From positions 1 to 25,039 of IMG/VR virus record IMGVR_UViG_3300005911_000011: DNA of 25,039 nt; one strand, written 5' to 3'. The notes under the pieces are model-generated. The model was given only the letters and a program-made list of their open reading frames with translations. It did no database searches and was not told where the DNA came from. A program made the position numbers and the translations under genes. This document shows, piece by piece, positions 6,732 through 22,142 of this stretch. The DNA is from a virus. Positions within the stretch are counted from its first letter, which is position 1. Every line of letters begins with the position of its first letter.

Positions 6732-7160
6732 ATGGGAGACCGAGGACCAAAACCAGAAACCAAAATACACGTACTGCCGGCGCAAAAAAATAAACGCAAA
6801 TCACCTATACCAGGAATGACAAAGCCTGCTTGCCGGATCTGGACAAAAGTAATGGGTGACTACGATCCGGATCATTTTTTACCACAACACTATGGCATTT
6901 TACGCGCATATTGCGAAGCCGAAGCAGCTCACAACCGGGCGATTAAGGGTGTTGCTGAAGGCGGAGATATCATCAAGCAAGAAAACGGCGTGGTAAAAGA
7001 AAATCCATATGTGAACATGGAAATAAAGTTTGCAAATCTTATGTCTCAGCTTGGAACAAAGTTGGGCATAACAAAAAATGCAACAACCGTTTCAAGGGGT
7101 GATAAGTCTTTAAAACCAAAACCAAAAAGCAAACGGGATGGATTAATGGGTGGCCAATGA
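6732..7160 (+). CDS. terS: Terminase small subunit, P27 family
   Basis: The 142-aa protein begins MGDRGPKPETKIHVLPAQ and continues with PGMTKPACRIWTKVMGDY and LRAYCEAEAAHNRAIKGV, the pattern of P27-type small terminase subunits. NPYVNMEIKFANLMSQLGTKLGIT follows as the usual C-terminal helix. It recognises the phage packaging site and hands DNA to the large subunit. GGGGG (6721-6725) precedes ATG 6732. The C-terminal tail SKRDGLMGG is repeated at the end of the RHH gene at 8680, a sign of a cassette insertion just downstream. The stop overlaps the next gene by ATGA. Confidence 0.88.
   Translation: MGDRGPKPETKIHVLPAQKNKRKSPIPGMTKPACRIWTKVMGDYDPDHFLPQHYGILRAYCEAEAAHNRAIKGVAEGGDIIKQENGVVKENPYVNMEIKFANLMSQLGTKLGITKNATTVSRGDKSLKPKPKSKRDGLMGGQ
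7131..7153 (+). repeat. 23-bp direct repeat, left copy (end of terS)
   Basis: This segment matches 8854-8876 with two mismatches in 23 bases and encodes KRDGLMGG in both places, in the same frame. The two copies are 1,723 bp apart and bound the PLD-like gene and the second promoter-driven cassette. Confidence 0.7.
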
Positions 7161-7837
7161 AAATTAAATTACAACCTGCCACCATTGCCGATATGAAAAA
7201 TATCAAGCCGTCAAAAAAAACTACCACATCTGAAAAATACCGGGAAGATGTCAGGATATTTCTTGAGGAGATGAAAATCTTTTCCATTAAATCGAAGAAA
7301 ATCATTAAGATGATTATTAAGACATTTGACGACCTTAAATTACCCATCCCAGGTGAACAACTCCGGATCAGGACACAGCAACAGGTGAATCTCATAGTTT
7401 TGGTTTTACGTATCCTGAAACAACACGACAAAATTGATGAATTGACAATCGCAACATATTCCCTGAATAAAGAAGCCTTTAATATTTTGAGTGATCTTGT
7501 CAAGGCGGGCAAAATAAAAAAATTCAATATATTCCTTGCCAGCTCAAACCGCTTCAGGAATGAGAATCATTTGAATTATCTAATTAACCTTTCCCGGGAA
7601 CTTTCTGAAAGTGGTTTTTTGCTTTCCTTTGTTTTGGTTTGGAGTCATTTCAAAATAACCCTTGCCAGGTGCGGATCTGATTTTTATCAATTTGAGGGCA
7701 GTATGAATTATTCAATGAATAATATGGCCGAACAGATCGTTTTTGAAAACAATAAAGATTTATACGATTTTGATTATGATTTTATAACCGAAACCATGCA
7801 GGATACAAAAAACAAGGCCCTGGAAATAATAATATAA
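7157..7837 (+). CDS. Phospholipase D-superfamily-like protein (single HKD-type motif)
   Basis: The 226-aa protein has a Lys-rich N-terminus. A region around residues 92-135 (IDELTIATYSLNKEAFNILS and KKFNIFLASSNRF) looks like the first PLD strand-helix units. The active-site-like segment is SHFKITLARCGSDFY followed by FEGSMNYSMNNMAEQ: His164-x-Lys166, Gly181-Ser182-x-Asn184 and Glu192. This is one HKD half-site, as in dimeric PLD nucleases such as Nuc and BfiI, though the Asp after HxK is less clear. It may act on phosphodiesters of DNA or lipid. It overlaps the terS stop by ATGA, so it is made with TerS, which is an odd place for such an enzyme. Confidence 0.55.
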   Translation: MKIKLQPATIADMKNIKPSKKTTTSEKYREDVRIFLEEMKIFSIKSKKIIKMIIKTFDDLKLPIPGEQLRIRTQQQVNLIVLVLRILKQHDKIDELTIATYSLNKEAFNILSDLVKAGKIKKFNIFLASSNRFRNENHLNYLINLSRELSESGFLLSFVLVWSHFKITLARCGSDFYQFEGSMNYSMNNMAEQIVFENNKDLYDFDYDFITETMQDTKNKALEIII

Positions 7838-7932: not shown

Positions 7933-8340
7933 ATGAAATTGATTGGCGGACAGAAACTCAAAGAACTCGGAAGCACAAGACACACAGAAGATTCAGATTA
8001 TATTATTTTCGACTCTGAAAAAGACGTTTTCACCCATGACGCAGAAAAAAACATTGATTATATCAACGCAGCAAAAAATGATTTTTTCGGAAAAATTTGG
8101 AACAAAGAAATAGACAACTCTGAAATTTCTTTAAACTCCCTCCTGGAACTCAAATCATTTAGCTTTGTTCAACACTGCCAGAACATGAATTTTACAAAAG
8201 CAGACAATGACGAATTTGACATTAAATTTCTGGTTAGAAAACTTGGATTTGATGTCAACTTTAACATTGTCAAAAAATACATCTCAGCCGGTGAGTTGAG
8301 CGAAATAGTTAAAATAATCAATAGCATGAAAAGGAGCTAA
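7933..8340 (+). CDS. Nucleotidyltransferase-superfamily-like protein (AbiEii/MNT-type signature)
   Basis: The N-terminus MKLIGGQKLKELGSTRHTED continues SDYIIFD. This fits the nucleotidyltransferase signature GG-x(6)-G-x2-R-x-T-x-D-x-D: Gly5, Gly6, Gly13, Arg16, Thr18, Asp20 and Asp22. Later LNSLLELKSFSF and NDEFDIKFLVRKLG match the L-x2-L-x-x-K and D-x2-D-x3-L elements of AbiEii-like proteins. Members transfer nucleotides to tRNA or protein, often in toxin-antitoxin and abortive-infection systems. At 135 aa it is a minimal version. It is the first gene after the strong promoter at 7876 and precedes two small genes. Function in superinfection defence is an inference. Confidence 0.55.
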   Translation: MKLIGGQKLKELGSTRHTEDSDYIIFDSEKDVFTHDAEKNIDYINAAKNDFFGKIWNKEIDNSEISLNSLLELKSFSFVQHCQNMNFTKADNDEFDIKFLVRKLGFDVNFNIVKKYISAGELSEIVKIINSMKRS

Positions 8341-8342
8341 TC

Positions 8343-8633
8343 ATGACAAAGTTAAAAAATAAAACTCAGTTAAGAAACCTCGTAAAAAGCAGTGTCGGGA
8401 ATACTGGAAGTCTTGACAGGGTAGAGATTTATGACGATTACACCTGGGCTGATATGAGTTGCAGTACGTGGTCAGAAAATTGCGTATTGAGAATGAGCGT
8501 GATTGATGTTGCGAGACGGTGTAGCTATGACAACACCATTGACCAGGATATCACAGAGATGTTTAGAAGAATTGAAGCCGCCGTTGATTATTACCACGAA
8601 CATGGCCAGAAATTAGATTTTGACATGATATAG
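8343..8633 (+). CDS. Unrecognised 96-aa protein of the accessory cassette
   Basis: ATG 8343 follows AAAAGGAGC and starts 3 nt after the nucleotidyltransferase-like gene, so the two are co-transcribed. The soluble product has a basic N-terminus, a central segment WADMSCSTWSENCVLRMS, and an acidic helical C-terminus (EMFRRIEAAVDYYHEHGQ). I looked for the HEPN R-x(4-6)-H motif that would make an MNT/HEPN pair and did not find it. No family is recognised; partner or inhibitor of the preceding protein is only a guess. Confidence 0.6.
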   Translation: MTKLKNKTQLRNLVKSSVGNTGSLDRVEIYDDYTWADMSCSTWSENCVLRMSVIDVARRCSYDNTIDQDITEMFRRIEAAVDYYHEHGQKLDFDMI

Positions 8634-8679: not shown

Positions 8680-8883
8680 ATTAAAAACAAATCAAAAGGG
8701 GCTGGCAGGCCGCCTGTCCCACCACACCTAAAACGTGTAAAAATGACAGGGGTAAGGATTCAGCAATGGATCCTTGATTGGCTTATGGCGCAACATGGAT
8801 CAAAGGGTCAGTTAATTGAAAAATTGTTGATTGATAAATATGGGTTGGAATCAAAACGGGATGGATTGATGGGAGGGAAATAA
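8680..8883 (+). CDS. Ribbon-helix-helix-like small protein with a probable ATT start
   Basis: The frame has no ATG, GTG or TTG until an ATG at 8743, which lacks a ribosome site. Yet the typical N-terminal pattern (AGRPPVPPHLKRVKMTG) lies before that ATG, so translation must start upstream. AAGGAG (8669-8674) points to ATT at 8680, five bases away, giving 67 aa. The core GVRIQQWILDWLMAQHGSKG then QLIEKLLIDKYGL looks like strand, helix A and helix B of an RHH or related DNA-binding fold. The last residues SKRDGLMGGK copy the TerS tail. It may regulate the cassette promoter at 7876. The start codon is the uncertain part. Confidence 0.55.
   Translation: MKNKSKGAGRPPVPPHLKRVKMTGVRIQQWILDWLMAQHGSKGQLIEKLLIDKYGLESKRDGLMGGK
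8854..8876 (+). repeat. 23-bp direct repeat, right copy
   Basis: Matches 7131-7153 with two mismatches. Here the sequence also supplies GGGAGGG, the ribosome site of the next gene (ATG 8886), suggesting that this copy is the ancestral end of terS and that the DNA between the copies was inserted. Confidence 0.7.
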
Positions 8884-8885
8884 AA

Positions 8886-9152
8886 ATGTATTACATAGAA
8901 ATACCAAAGATAATTGAAGCCACTCAAGTTTTTAAACTTTCAGATCATAAATTGATTGTTCCGATAACAACAAAATATGAGAATTTTACACCTGTTAAAA
9001 ATGGCGCATTTGCTTTATTGCAAGCAGGCTTCTATGAAATTGATTTTGTTATGCCTGGTGATTATATCATAGAAGAAAATTATGATGAAGATTATCCATG
9101 TGTTGTAATGCGTAAGAAAGATTTTGAAATAAGATATAAAGAATACGAATAA
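8886..9152 (+). CDS. Small phage protein with PGDYI motif
   Basis: The 88-aa product starts at ATG 8886 after GGGAGGG. It is beta-rich: EATQVFKLSDHKLIVPITTKY, then FYEIDFVMPGDYIIEE, then VVMRKKDFEIRYKEYE. The pattern PGDyII, a turn, then a V/F-x2-F-x2-x-Y end is a recurrent signature of small uncharacterised phage proteins. Its function is unknown. It is two bases upstream of the large terminase gene and so is likely co-translated with it. Confidence 0.6.
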   Translation: MYYIEIPKIIEATQVFKLSDHKLIVPITTKYENFTPVKNGAFALLQAGFYEIDFVMPGDYIIEENYDEDYPCVVMRKKDFEIRYKEYE

Positions 9153-9153
9153 C

Positions 9154-11214
9154 ATGCAAACCTACATAGATAAAGCCAGAGCCCAAAGAATAATTGATTT
9201 TATCCAAACCCTTACCATTCCTGAAGGTATGCACCAAGGAAAACCGTTTATTTTGAGACCATGGCAACAGGAGATAATCATGGATGTATACTCCCCTGTT
9301 GATGAAAATGGCCTTCGCGTTGTCCGTAAAGCAATCCTATCCATGGGAAAAAAGAACGGAAAGGGGCTTGCTCTTAATACACCACTCCCGACACCTACCG
9401 GATGGATGACGATGGATGACGTAAAACCGGGCGATATCCTTTATGATGAGTTTGGAAATGAATGCAAGGTAACGTTTGAAAGTGATATAAAAAATATTGA
9501 TTGTTATTCTGTTTCATTTTCAAATAACGATACAGTGATATGTGATGAAGAACATCTATGGGTCACTTCAACTATTTTGTCTAATAAAAAAACAAGGTCC
9601 ATGAAAGAAATATATCTTACACAATCACATGAACATTCTATAGAATCATATGAAACTGTAAAAATAATATCTGTTAAAAAAACACCAAGTGTCCCTACAA
9701 AATGTATTCGGGTTGACAGCCCAAATAGTTTATTTCTTTGTGGCAAAACAATGATACCTACCCACAACACCCCCCTGATAGCTGCAATAGTCCTAACTCA
9801 CCTCATAGGCCCAGAAGCCAAACGAAACGAGCAAATGAACTCAGCAGCCTTTGAGCGCGAGCAGGCTGGTATCGTCTTTAAATATATGGAAAATATAATT
9901 TATGCCGATGAAGAACTAAAAGAAGCCACCATTATCAGGACAACTAAAAAAGAAATCGAAGGGCGGTATACTGGATCCATTTACAAGGCATTATCAGCAG
10001 AGACAAAATCAAAGCATGGTTTCAGTCCCGCCCTACTCGCATTTGATGAGCTTGCCCAGTTTGGAGCGGATAGAAGATTTTACGATACTCTTGTCCAAGG
10101 TTTTGGCGCTCATTTAGAACCTATGCTATGGATTATTTCAACTCAGGCAGCAGACGACCTGGCGGTTTTATCGGAGGAAATAGACTACGTAATAAAAAAC
10201 GGTCACACGGACCCCACAGTAAAGCTATTTCTATTCACAAGCCCTATCCATGACGAAAAGGGCGAGGAGATAGATATAATGGATAGAGAGTCCTGGAAGC
10301 TGTCAAACCCGGCCCTGGACGATTTCCTTTCCCTGAAAGACATGGTATCTCTTGCCAATACAGCCCACAACATGCCAAGCTCTGAACCAGGATTCCGAAA
10401 TCTAAGATTAAATCAGCGCATTTCAACAGATTCCCCTTTTATGTCTATCGGTGTATGGACTAAAAACAATGCATTACCAAGCGTTGACGCATTATCAAAG
10501 GGGCGTATAACAGCAGGGCTTGATTTGTCCGGAAAGAATGATTTATCAGCCTTGGTCTTGGATGCCTTTTATTACGAAGAAATAGAAATAAAAGTTGCTG
10601 GTAATTTAAGCGTAATTGAAAAAGGGAAAAAAGGCTTTCACAATCTATTTGCCTATTTTTGGAAACCAGGTGACCTGATCCAGGAACACAAGAAAAAAGA
10701 CAGGGTGCCATATGATTTGTGGGTAAAGCAAGGGCATATCGAAGCGAAGCCAGGGAAAACAATTGATTATGAGTATATTGCCTTAAAGGTCTATGAGCTG
10801 CACGTTTTACACCATATAGACGAATTACGCTTTGACAGATGGCGCATTGAGGACTTCCAAAGGGCCTTGGATAAGGTCGGGTGTGACACCTACATAAAAG
10901 ACAAGGAAGAATCCCCAGGCAGCGACGCGCTTTGCCTTGTACCACATGGTCAGGGTTTTAAGGACATAAATCCAGCGATAGAGAGCGTTGAGGATGTATT
11001 TACAGACTCCAGGGCCAGACACGGTGGCAATCCTGTTCTTACAAATTGTGTGGCAAATACAGTGGTGACTTTTGACCCTGCCAATAATCGAAAATTTGAG
11101 AAGCAAAAATCAACTGGTCGGATTGACGGAACAGTTGCAATGGCTATGGCTATGAATGGGGCCGAACTGCCGCAACTTGAGGACACCACACAACCGGCTG
11201 TAATATTTATTTAA
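9154..11214 (+). CDS. terL: Terminase large subunit (HK97-type) interrupted by a mini-intein
   Basis: The 686-aa precursor holds an HK97-type large terminase of 551 aa plus a 135-aa intein. The N-terminal host part has LRPWQQEII (adenine-binding motif, 34-42) and SMGKKNGK (Walker A, 63-70). The intein then runs from Gly71 to Asn205, and TPLIAA resumes the P-loop at Thr206. Walker B is LLAFDE (294-299) and motif III is ISTQ (328-331). The nuclease begins at AGLDLSGKND (Asp457), and RIDGTVAMAMAM near the C-terminus carries another likely metal ligand. The enzyme pumps DNA into the prohead using ATP and cuts the concatemer. ATP binding is impossible until splicing joins Lys70 to Thr206. Confidence 0.9.
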   Translation: MQTYIDKARAQRIIDFIQTLTIPEGMHQGKPFILRPWQQEIIMDVYSPVDENGLRVVRKAILSMGKKNGKGLALNTPLPTPTGWMTMDDVKPGDILYDEFGNECKVTFESDIKNIDCYSVSFSNNDTVICDEEHLWVTSTILSNKKTRSMKEIYLTQSHEHSIESYETVKIISVKKTPSVPTKCIRVDSPNSLFLCGKTMIPTHNTPLIAAIVLTHLIGPEAKRNEQMNSAAFEREQAGIVFKYMENIIYADEELKEATIIRTTKKEIEGRYTGSIYKALSAETKSKHGFSPALLAFDELAQFGADRRFYDTLVQGFGAHLEPMLWIISTQAADDLAVLSEEIDYVIKNGHTDPTVKLFLFTSPIHDEKGEEIDIMDRESWKLSNPALDDFLSLKDMVSLANTAHNMPSSEPGFRNLRLNQRISTDSPFMSIGVWTKNNALPSVDALSKGRITAGLDLSGKNDLSALVLDAFYYEEIEIKVAGNLSVIEKGKKGFHNLFAYFWKPGDLIQEHKKKDRVPYDLWVKQGHIEAKPGKTIDYEYIALKVYELHVLHHIDELRFDRWRIEDFQRALDKVGCDTYIKDKEESPGSDALCLVPHGQGFKDINPAIESVEDVFTDSRARHGGNPVLTNCVANTVVTFDPANNRKFEKQKSTGRIDGTVAMAMAMNGAELPQLEDTTQPAVIFI
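9364..9768 (+). other. Class 3-type mini-intein inside the terL Walker A motif
   Basis: Residues 71-205 of the precursor form a Hint domain without an endonuclease. Block A is LALNTPLPTPTGWMTMDDV then KPGDILYDEFGN. Block B is CDEEHLWVT with His134 and Trp136. Block F is KCIRVDSPNSLFL with Cys184. Block G is IPTHN with His204 and Asn205, followed by Thr206 as the +1 residue. Residue 1 is Gly, not the usual Cys or Ser, so the normal first nucleophile is absent. The Trp, Cys and Thr set is the signature of class 3 inteins, which use the block F Cys instead. Excision restores GKKNGKT. Confidence 0.88.
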
Positions 11215-19844: not shown

Positions 19845-20257
19845 TGGATTTATTATTTCAAGCCATATATAACCATTTTTCAGCCACAACCGGAAGCGGT
19901 TTTTATAACGATGTGTCAGGCCGGATGTATCCCAATTTTGCCAGCCAGGGTGCCAGCTTCCCATATTGCGTTTATTTTTCCGTAGTTGATGGCAATGACC
20001 TTGATTTTTCAGATGAAAGCGAAGATTTTTTATTACAGTTTAACATTTTCAGTCAAAATACTTCAAGCATTGAGGCCGGGAACCTACTTGAAAGCCTTAA
20101 AACTATGTTCGATAATTGCAGCTTGACAGTGACGGGATGGAGACATTTACAATTTCAGAGAGGGAACATATACCCTAACGGTGATTATGAACAGAGCCCA
20201 CCAATACAGGGGTATTCAGTTGAATATAACGTCTTACTTGAAAAGGCTCGGAGCTAA
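19844..20257 (+). CDS. Tail completion protein (DUF3168-like)
   Basis: I start at ATG 19844, which overlaps the previous stop by one base, rather than at a TTG at 19826. The 137-aa protein begins MDLLFQAIYNHFSATTGS and continues with RMYPNFASQGASFPYCVYF, the phage tail-completion pattern (short helix, then P-Y-x-V/C-Y-x-x). ESEDFLLQFNIFSQNTSS and the C-terminal GYSVEYNVLLE fit DUF3168. Such proteins cap the tail tube where it meets the head. Confidence 0.75.
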   Translation: MDLLFQAIYNHFSATTGSGFYNDVSGRMYPNFASQGASFPYCVYFSVVDGNDLDFSDESEDFLLQFNIFSQNTSSIEAGNLLESLKTMFDNCSLTVTGWRHLQFQRGNIYPNGDYEQSPPIQGYSVEYNVLLEKARS

Positions 20258-20862
20258 TGATAACCCTGAAAAATAAATATAAAGGCCAAATATTAAATAT
20301 TGTCGGCAAGGGACCGTCTTTGAGATATTTAAAAACTGAGCATTTTATCCCAGGTCCAATAGTAACAATCAATCATGCCATAATAGCAGTAGAGCAATTT
20401 AATTTTGATGACGTATATTCAATGCAGAAAGATGGTGGGAACCGGCGTATTTCTTTGAGTCAGCAGGATTTAAACCCGAGTTGTGAGCATTCAGGAGATT
20501 GTGGCGATACCTGTGGCGGAATGACAAGGCCAAAAAAAGCAACTCTCCTTGTTCATAGACACGAATCTTTATTTTGTTTTCCTGAATACAAGCCAAGAGT
20601 GGTTTTTGATTGGGATCTTTTAGGATTGCCGGGGAACGAAAACTCAATGATTTTTTCAATTCAAATCGGTAAATTATTTGGGTGTACTGGATTTCGGTTT
20701 ATTTCGTTTGACATGCACACTCATGGAGACAATAGAACTTATATACCCGGAATGATAGAAGATATGCCGAATAATCCCTATCAATCTCAAGTGCCAAAAA
20801 TAGCACAATATATAAACGGGTTTGATTCAATGTGGGTCACACCGAAAAAGGAGCAAGAATGA
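20257..20862 (+). CDS. GKGPSL-motif Rossmann-like protein (MptE/DUF115-type or glycan enzyme)
   Basis: The 201-aa protein starts MITLKNKYKGQILNIVGKGPSL. The strand-GKGPSL loop, then PIVTINHAIIAV, resembles the nucleotide-binding start of DUF115/MptE-like and some sialyltransferase-type proteins. A Cys-rich stretch follows (SCEHSGDCGDTCGG), and SIQIGKLFGCTGFRFISFDM is typical of the later Rossmann half. It directly precedes a glycosyltransferase gene, overlapping it by ATGA, so the two probably act in one glycan pathway. The exact reaction is unknown. Confidence 0.5.
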   Translation: MITLKNKYKGQILNIVGKGPSLRYLKTEHFIPGPIVTINHAIIAVEQFNFDDVYSMQKDGGNRRISLSQQDLNPSCEHSGDCGDTCGGMTRPKKATLLVHRHESLFCFPEYKPRVVFDWDLLGLPGNENSMIFSIQIGKLFGCTGFRFISFDMHTHGDNRTYIPGMIEDMPNNPYQSQVPKIAQYINGFDSMWVTPKKEQE

Positions 20863-22142
20863 TGGAGCAAAAAGTATCAATAATTATCCCGGTCATAAGA
20901 CCAGAAAGCGCAGAAAGGTGTATTGAGGCTATCAGGAAAAATGCAGGGTGTGATAGTTATGAAATAATATCTGCCGTTGATGTTGATGGTATCGGATGCC
21001 CGAAAATGGTAGAAATACTTACAAAACAGGCCAAATACGATCTTGTCATGTTTCTTGGAGATGACACCATCCCTGAAAGAGACTTTTTAAAACACGCCAT
21101 TGACGCCATGGAAAGTTTTCCTGACGGATGGGGCGTGGTTGGATTACATACACTTGACATAAGAATTGAAACCGGTAACCCACTCGCACACTGGATGGCC
21201 CATAAAAAGATGCTTGAGCATATCCCTGACGGTAATTTCTTTTCTACCGAATATCATCATTGTTGGTGTGATAATGAATTAAAAGATGTTGCTGATGAAT
21301 TGGGCCGGTGGGCATATGCTAAAAAATCAAAAATAACGCATATGCATCCTGTCAATAAATTGGCCCGGGATGATGCAGGATATAAAAAAGCGTATGGCAA
21401 TGGCCATGATACAAATGATTTTAAGATATACTGCCAGCGCAAACGTGCCCGGATGCAGGAAAGATATGGAATCAAGCTCGCAATAGCCGTGCCATTGACG
21501 GACGAAACAGTTTACCGACAATTCTTCTTTTCTTTTGTCAAAGTCATAACGGAATATATGAGCAGCCTGGTGAAAAATGGAAAGCCAATATCATTCGATG
21601 TTTTAATGCCGGACTTCCCCTGTCAAATTGATGCAGCACGAAATAATTTGGTTCAGAAAGCCCTTCTGTCAGGATGCACACATATTTTAATGATGGACAC
21701 AGACCAGATCTACCAGACAACCGGAATGATCGAAAAAATGTTGGCTCATGATAATCCTGTTGTCGGGGCTCGTGTCCATCGGCGGTACCCTCCTTTTGAT
21801 CCGTTATTGCTCAGGGGGGATCCTGGGAAATTATATCAGGTGCCGGACGATGAAATAAAAAACGAGGATGGAAGTTTTAACGAGGATCTTCCAGTGGACT
21901 ATACCGGGACAGGGTGTATCCTTTATGATATGAAAATTTTTAATGACATGATACCCTTAAAATGGTTCAGGTTTTCCGTGGGTGATCATGGTCAGCCGAT
22001 AGGAGAAGATATCAATTTTTGCGATGAGCTGAAAAAAGCAAATATCCCTATCATTGTTGACTGCTCGATTGATATAAAACACTTGTCAACCATGGCGATC
22101 GATTGGGGAACATATAAATTATTCCAGAAAATAATGAAATAA
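20859..22142 (+). CDS. Tandem-domain GT-A glycosyltransferase
   Basis: I start at ATGATG (20859), five bases after AAAAAGGAG, instead of a GTG at 20832. The 427-aa protein has two GT-A units. Unit one (about 1-210) has VSIIIPVIRPESAERCIEAI and VMFLGDDTIPE with an Asp pair for metal. Unit two (about 211-427) starts LAIAVPLTDETV, has ILMMDTDQIYQT (the DxD motif), VVGARVHRRYPPF, and EDINFCDELKK...IDIKHL near the end. It would move sugars from nucleotide donors. It lies inside the tail genes, so a target on the virion or on the host surface is likely. Confidence 0.78.
   Translation: MMEQKVSIIIPVIRPESAERCIEAIRKNAGCDSYEIISAVDVDGIGCPKMVEILTKQAKYDLVMFLGDDTIPERDFLKHAIDAMESFPDGWGVVGLHTLDIRIETGNPLAHWMAHKKMLEHIPDGNFFSTEYHHCWCDNELKDVADELGRWAYAKKSKITHMHPVNKLARDDAGYKKAYGNGHDTNDFKIYCQRKRARMQERYGIKLAIAVPLTDETVYRQFFFSFVKVITEYMSSLVKNGKPISFDVLMPDFPCQIDAARNNLVQKALLSGCTHILMMDTDQIYQTTGMIEKMLAHDNPVVGARVHRRYPPFDPLLLRGDPGKLYQVPDDEIKNEDGSFNEDLPVDYTGTGCILYDMKIFNDMIPLKWFRFSVGDHGQPIGEDINFCDELKKANIPIIVDCSIDIKHLSTMAIDWGTYKLFQKIMK

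Follow-up and report, generated by a model that had tools for sequence, protein, structure and literature searches.

How can a phage large terminase (TerL) carry 135 extra residues in its Walker A loop, between SMGKKNGK and TPLIAAIVL? The question is raised by an IMG/VR virus record of 25,039 bases, the whole of which was analysed here and is called the window. It contains a packaging and head module of the HK97 type (HNH endonuclease, small terminase, TerL, portal and prohead protease). Our best explanation, to which we give a probability of roughly 95%, is that the insert is a class 3 mini-intein that splices out of TerL and was derived by loss of an endonuclease at the same site. A sequence-only reading had proposed a class 3 mini-intein in the Walker A loop, and this is where the PDB matches, the fold, a comparison of 27 inteins and the TerL alignments agree.

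The insert and its host gene

The terL gene is a single open frame of 686 residues (9154-11214, plus strand), uninterrupted through 9364-9768, and the portal and protease frames alongside it are also intact. The sequence-only reading had placed the insert exactly, with 135 residues in frame, and was right about its motifs (HLW, KCIRVDS and PTHN), about Gly at residue 1 and about the numbering (Cys184 and Asn205 of the precursor are C114 and N135 of the intein). On TerL, Pfam recognised the C-terminal part of the ATPase domain, starting at residue 212, and the nuclease domain (PF03354 and PF20441), and from residue 206 onward the C-extein shows about 41% identity to HK97 TerL. The structure of HK97 TerL (6z6d) aligns with an intein-free relative (L006) through ARKNGKT. 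The insertion point in the HK97-type Walker A loop lies between K70 and T206 (KKNGK/T, the slash marking the junction). For inteins that separate the Lys and Thr of the TerL P-loop there is a described site class, TerL1-a (PMC5050341), and the window has the insert at this invariant Lys/Thr in a TerL of the Terminase_1 type (PF03354).

TerL relatives were collected from IMG/VR by the C-extein, and the site was found in three states among them. It is empty in L005 (AKKQGKT) and L006 (AKKNGKT), where the N-extein runs directly into the C-extein with an intact P-loop; including these two, 17 of the 20 rows of the TerL alignment have no intein and are exact at the site, so that the in-frame insert is missing from homologous host proteins. 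An intein-less relative had been named beforehand as a check, and here there are many. In two identical TerL genes (L003 and L004) the very same position holds an intein of 360 residues, whose LAGLIDADG_3 domain passes the Pfam cut-off, and L040 carries a 355-residue intein at the TerL site. The third state is another mini-intein, of 138 residues, in a more distant phage (L011). Such sporadic occupancy is as expected of a mobile intein. A scan of genome contigs with the TerL alignment gave only two remote relatives. Mis-assembly of the insert is unlikely, because a separately assembled contig from another metagenome (L002) is nucleotide-identical to the window along a 10,518-base stretch that contains the insert.

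Table 1. Parts of terL and of the predicted intein, with the basis of each assignment
Feature	Positions	Strand	Basis
N-extein, TerL residues 1-70, ending in Walker A ...SMGKKNGK	9154..9363	+	alignment to intein-free TerLs
Predicted class 3 mini-intein, 135 aa, Gly1 ... His134 Asn135	9364..9768	+	PDB sequence match, fold, block comparison
Block A, GLALNTPLPTPTG; position 1 without Cys/Ser	9364..9402	+	sequence blocks
Cys47 codon, counterpart of Cys48 in Msm DnaBi1 (there the redox partner of the catalytic Cys)	9502..9504	+	alignment; role PMC6195587
Block B DEEHLW: Asp61, His64 (B:10), Trp66 (B:12, W of WCT)	9544..9561	+	block alignment
33-residue linker, position of the LAGLIDADG endonuclease in sister inteins	9562..9660	+	alignment
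Cys114 codon, predicted block F:4 nucleophile, C of WCT	9703..9705	+	alignment of class 3 inteins
Block G Thr133 (T of WCT), His134, Asn135	9760..9768	+	alignment; definition PMC5050341, PMC6195587
+1 Thr (precursor T206, TerL Walker A Thr), predicted second-step nucleophile	9769..9771	+	frame and TerL alignments
C-extein, remainder of TerL ATPase and nuclease domains	9769..11214	+	Pfam PF03354, PF20441; HK97 TerL

Class 3 identity

Class 3 inteins were reportedly defined in a paper by Tori and Perler in 2011. They lack Cys or Ser at position 1 and have Trp at B:12, Cys at F:4 and Thr at G:5 (PMC5050341, PMC6195587). The window intein has Gly1, shared with the inteins of L003, L011, L040 and L056, and the triplet W66, C114 and T133, aligned to W67, C118 and T137 of the Mycobacterium smegmatis (Msm) intein. 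We compared 27 class 3 inteins, drawn from IMG/VR, from named phages and from a single phage-plasmid, and the Trp, Cys, Thr and block B His, together with the terminal Asn, were identical in all of them. This alignment had been suggested by the sequence-only reading as a check, and the insert proved Hint-like, with the WCT triplet and block B His in common. That reading had assigned the Trp to block B and the Cys to block F correctly, but the Thr of the triplet is Thr133 of block G, just before the penultimate His, and not the +1 Thr (T206). The intein ends in His-Asn followed by Thr (PTHN/T).

Searches of the PDB point the same way. In phmmer the insert (all 134 residues used) matched class 3 DnaB inteins end to end, the best being that of M. 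smegmatis (6bs8, E 1.4e-24), with those of M. chimaera (6rix, 6riy) also found and E values ranging to 2.5e-22. An AlphaFold (AF2) model of the insert, made from a 10-sequence alignment of the window and IMG/VR inteins, had a mean pLDDT of 90.4. When this model was searched with Foldseek and VIA-align 2, 6riy, 6rix and 6bs8 came top in both (Z 20.1-20.7, 1.3-1.5 A over 122-126 residues), and the Hint fold is seen with blocks A, B, F and G. The model of the whole precursor was too poor to use (pLDDT 72, the intein part mostly under 65). Pfam and NCBIfam gave no intein match for the insert; PHROGs terminase and helicase profiles matched it, and such profiles evidently include inteins. The alignments and the predicted fold support the assignment of the insert as a class 3 mini-intein in the Walker A loop of TerL, and as far as comparison and modelling go they show its identity and anatomy.

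Proposed splicing course

That the window intein splices is something we infer by analogy with relatives that are solved and splice experimentally; three class 3 mini-inteins, Msm DnaB-1 among them, do so (PMC5222942). Following the class 3 mechanism (PMC4031507, PMC5222942, PMC7664689), the Hint domain would fold after translation, and Cys114, activated by His64 with Thr133, would attack the bond between Lys70 and Gly1 and hold the N-extein in thioester linkage. Next, the N-extein would move to the side chain of the +1 Thr206, Asn135 would cyclise to release the intein, and an O-N shift would join K70 to T206, giving a TerL of 551 residues with a normal KKNGKT P-loop. The ancestor would have been a homing intein with a LAGLIDADG endonuclease at the same site, which lost the endonuclease later. 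The intein would now be kept because a functional TerL results only if it is excised, or lost, exactly. The unspliced precursor should have no working P-loop, and its ATPase, and hence packaging, should be dead until splicing. A packaging timing switch through intein splicing is a speculation.

Possible redox control through Cys47

In Msm DnaBi1, oxidation forms a disulfide between Cys48 and the catalytic Cys118, and splicing stops (PMC6195587). Cys47 of the window intein aligns with this Cys48, which the authors of that study called "non-conserved"; 23 of the 27 class 3 inteins compared have Cys there, and our alignment thus shows that a counterpart of Cys48 is widespread in class 3 inteins. 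This conservation could reflect either a common redox gating or a plain need for splicing. One may add to the best explanation that the intein is conditional, a Cys47-Cys114 disulfide slowing its splicing so that redox gates packaging. The inhibitory disulfide of the counterpart and the 23 inteins favour this addition, but every Cys48 mutant of DnaBi1 was splicing-inactive (PMC6195587), so that catalysis or folding may be the reason why Cys47 is retained, and Cys34, Cys60 and Cys126, the further Cys of the window intein, could react too. We consider the addition rather unlikely. Still less likely is a gate general to class 3 TerL inteins, in which the Cys47-Cys114 disulfide would keep TerL unspliced and ATPase-dead until the cytoplasm is reducing, though if true it would explain the wide retention of the Cys48 counterpart. 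Since this counterpart is widespread, redox control of phage packaging becomes directly testable.

Selection and probable endonuclease loss

The sequence-only reading had also noted that a homing endonuclease is missing, which holds, since the linker between blocks B and F gave no LAGLIDADG match, and the domain is present in L003 and L004. It had therefore left room for a relict, that is, a decayed intein that does not splice, so that TerL would be dead or the phage or prophage defective. Such decay would fit the lack of an endonuclease, the diverged linker and the 25-kb fragment that makes up the record. However, the catalytic residues are all intact, the TerL, portal and protease frames are unbroken, and the identical phage is present in a second assembly. 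Moreover, the splicing blocks (the first 66 and last 38 codons of the intein) gave dN 0.042 and dS 0.338 between the window and L003, a ratio near 0.12, from a single pair of which part of the branch carried an endonuclease. The neighbouring exteins of the pair gave dN/dS values of 0.105/0.633 and 0.052/0.817, ratios of the same order. This purifying selection and the kept catalytic residues favour an active intein and make a relict very unlikely. That the insert belongs to class 1 or class 2 and merely has unusual residues is a reading that can be set aside almost entirely. In its favour are the Hint fold, common to the classes, and a Z of 18.4 for the class 1 intein gp41-1, although class 1 inteins score below the class 3 entries (18.4 and lower). 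Against it, position 1 is Gly, F:4 is Cys and not Asp, the WCT triplet is complete, and the +1 residue is Thr, where a class 2 intein would have Cys (PMC4031507).

For the class 3 mini-intein, the linker fits endonuclease loss, as its remnant RSMKEIYLTQ...HSI resembles the stretch RNIKDIFRTQ...HSI before the endonuclease in the long versions. By both exteins and splicing blocks, the window stands nearer to the endonuclease-bearing L003 than to L011, so that the two mini-inteins probably lost their endonucleases separately. A single ancestral loss for both is disfavoured, since L003 groups with the window and leaves L011 outside; on the four sequences compared, two losses would probably fit better, as would one loss and a later regain.

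Between the window and L003, the 30 bases directly 5' of the insertion site are identical, and the intein is 91% identical against 84% for the exteins (Fisher p 0.005), which gives only a hint of co-conversion by homing at the site, the intein being also under different constraint.

Comparison with known inteins

Class 3 inteins are thought to originate in phages (PMC4031507). The TerL1-a inteins of mycobacteriophages (PMC5050341) resemble ours in their site, in the P-loop of a Terminase_1 TerL at the invariant Lys/Thr; they belong to actinophages, whereas the window has an HK97-like TerL with an intein that has no endonuclease. The DnaB inteins of Msm DnaBi1, Mle DnaB and Mch DnaB1 (6bs8, 6rix, 6riy) are class 3, without endonuclease, at a P-loop site and with the same WCT and fold, with a full-length identity of about 37%, but their host is the DnaB helicase and their +1 residue is Ser, in contrast to TerL and Thr here. 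The Marinobacter phage-plasmid phiTHAF39 (NZ_CP045368, L089) has a class 3 mini-intein with the WCT triplet at the Walker A loop of its gpA (AQSAK/T), differing in the gpA-type terminase and with 35% intein identity to the window. In Clavibacter phage CN1A, whose TerL annotation reads 'contains intein', Vibrio phage 489E54-1 and Stenotrophomonas phage SOVA965, class 3 inteins interrupt the TerL Walker A motif between K and T or K and S, though these are longer and have an endonuclease-like insert. A class 3 mini-intein of 162 residues lies at a terminase Walker A loop in L055. The intein of L003 and L004 shares the window's site, with 92% nucleotide identity in the splicing blocks, and differs in its length and endonuclease. 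Thus, TerL inteins between K and T, class 3 inteins of phages and mini-inteins of that class in terminase P-loops are all on record, and the window intein is a further example of a known arrangement.

It leaves the general picture of inteins unchanged, and adds a small member to a class with few characterised members. Among the related environmental phages, one and the same site occurs empty, with an endonuclease-bearing intein and with two mini-inteins, a clean natural series that should be useful for studies of endonuclease loss. Separately, an endonuclease-bearing member of this intein family lies in L077 (702-818) within a terminase that looks different (HN/TTCAVPIGLAML), which suggests that the family has moved from one terminase lineage to another at this P-loop site.

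Other features of the window

The tail of terS (...KRDGLMGG, 7131-7164) is repeated 1.7 kb downstream at 8854-8887 (34 nt, 85%), at the end of a small ORF, and three small ORFs lie between the repeats (7157-7837, 7933-8340 and 8343-8633). In L003 the terS-terL interval has a single short ORF, and in L006 the first ORF only. The small ORFs look like inserted cargo with a duplicated terS tail. The first of them encodes a protein of 226 aa (phrog_20533); L006 has it in the corresponding position behind terS, at 74% nucleotide identity. At 1247-1313, ORF 1084-1350 ends in a 15-base tandem repeat of 4.5 copies, which codes for (GGRII)n. Two overlapping ORFs directly before the tail genes (20257-22142) appear by eye glycosyltransferase-like or sugar-acting.
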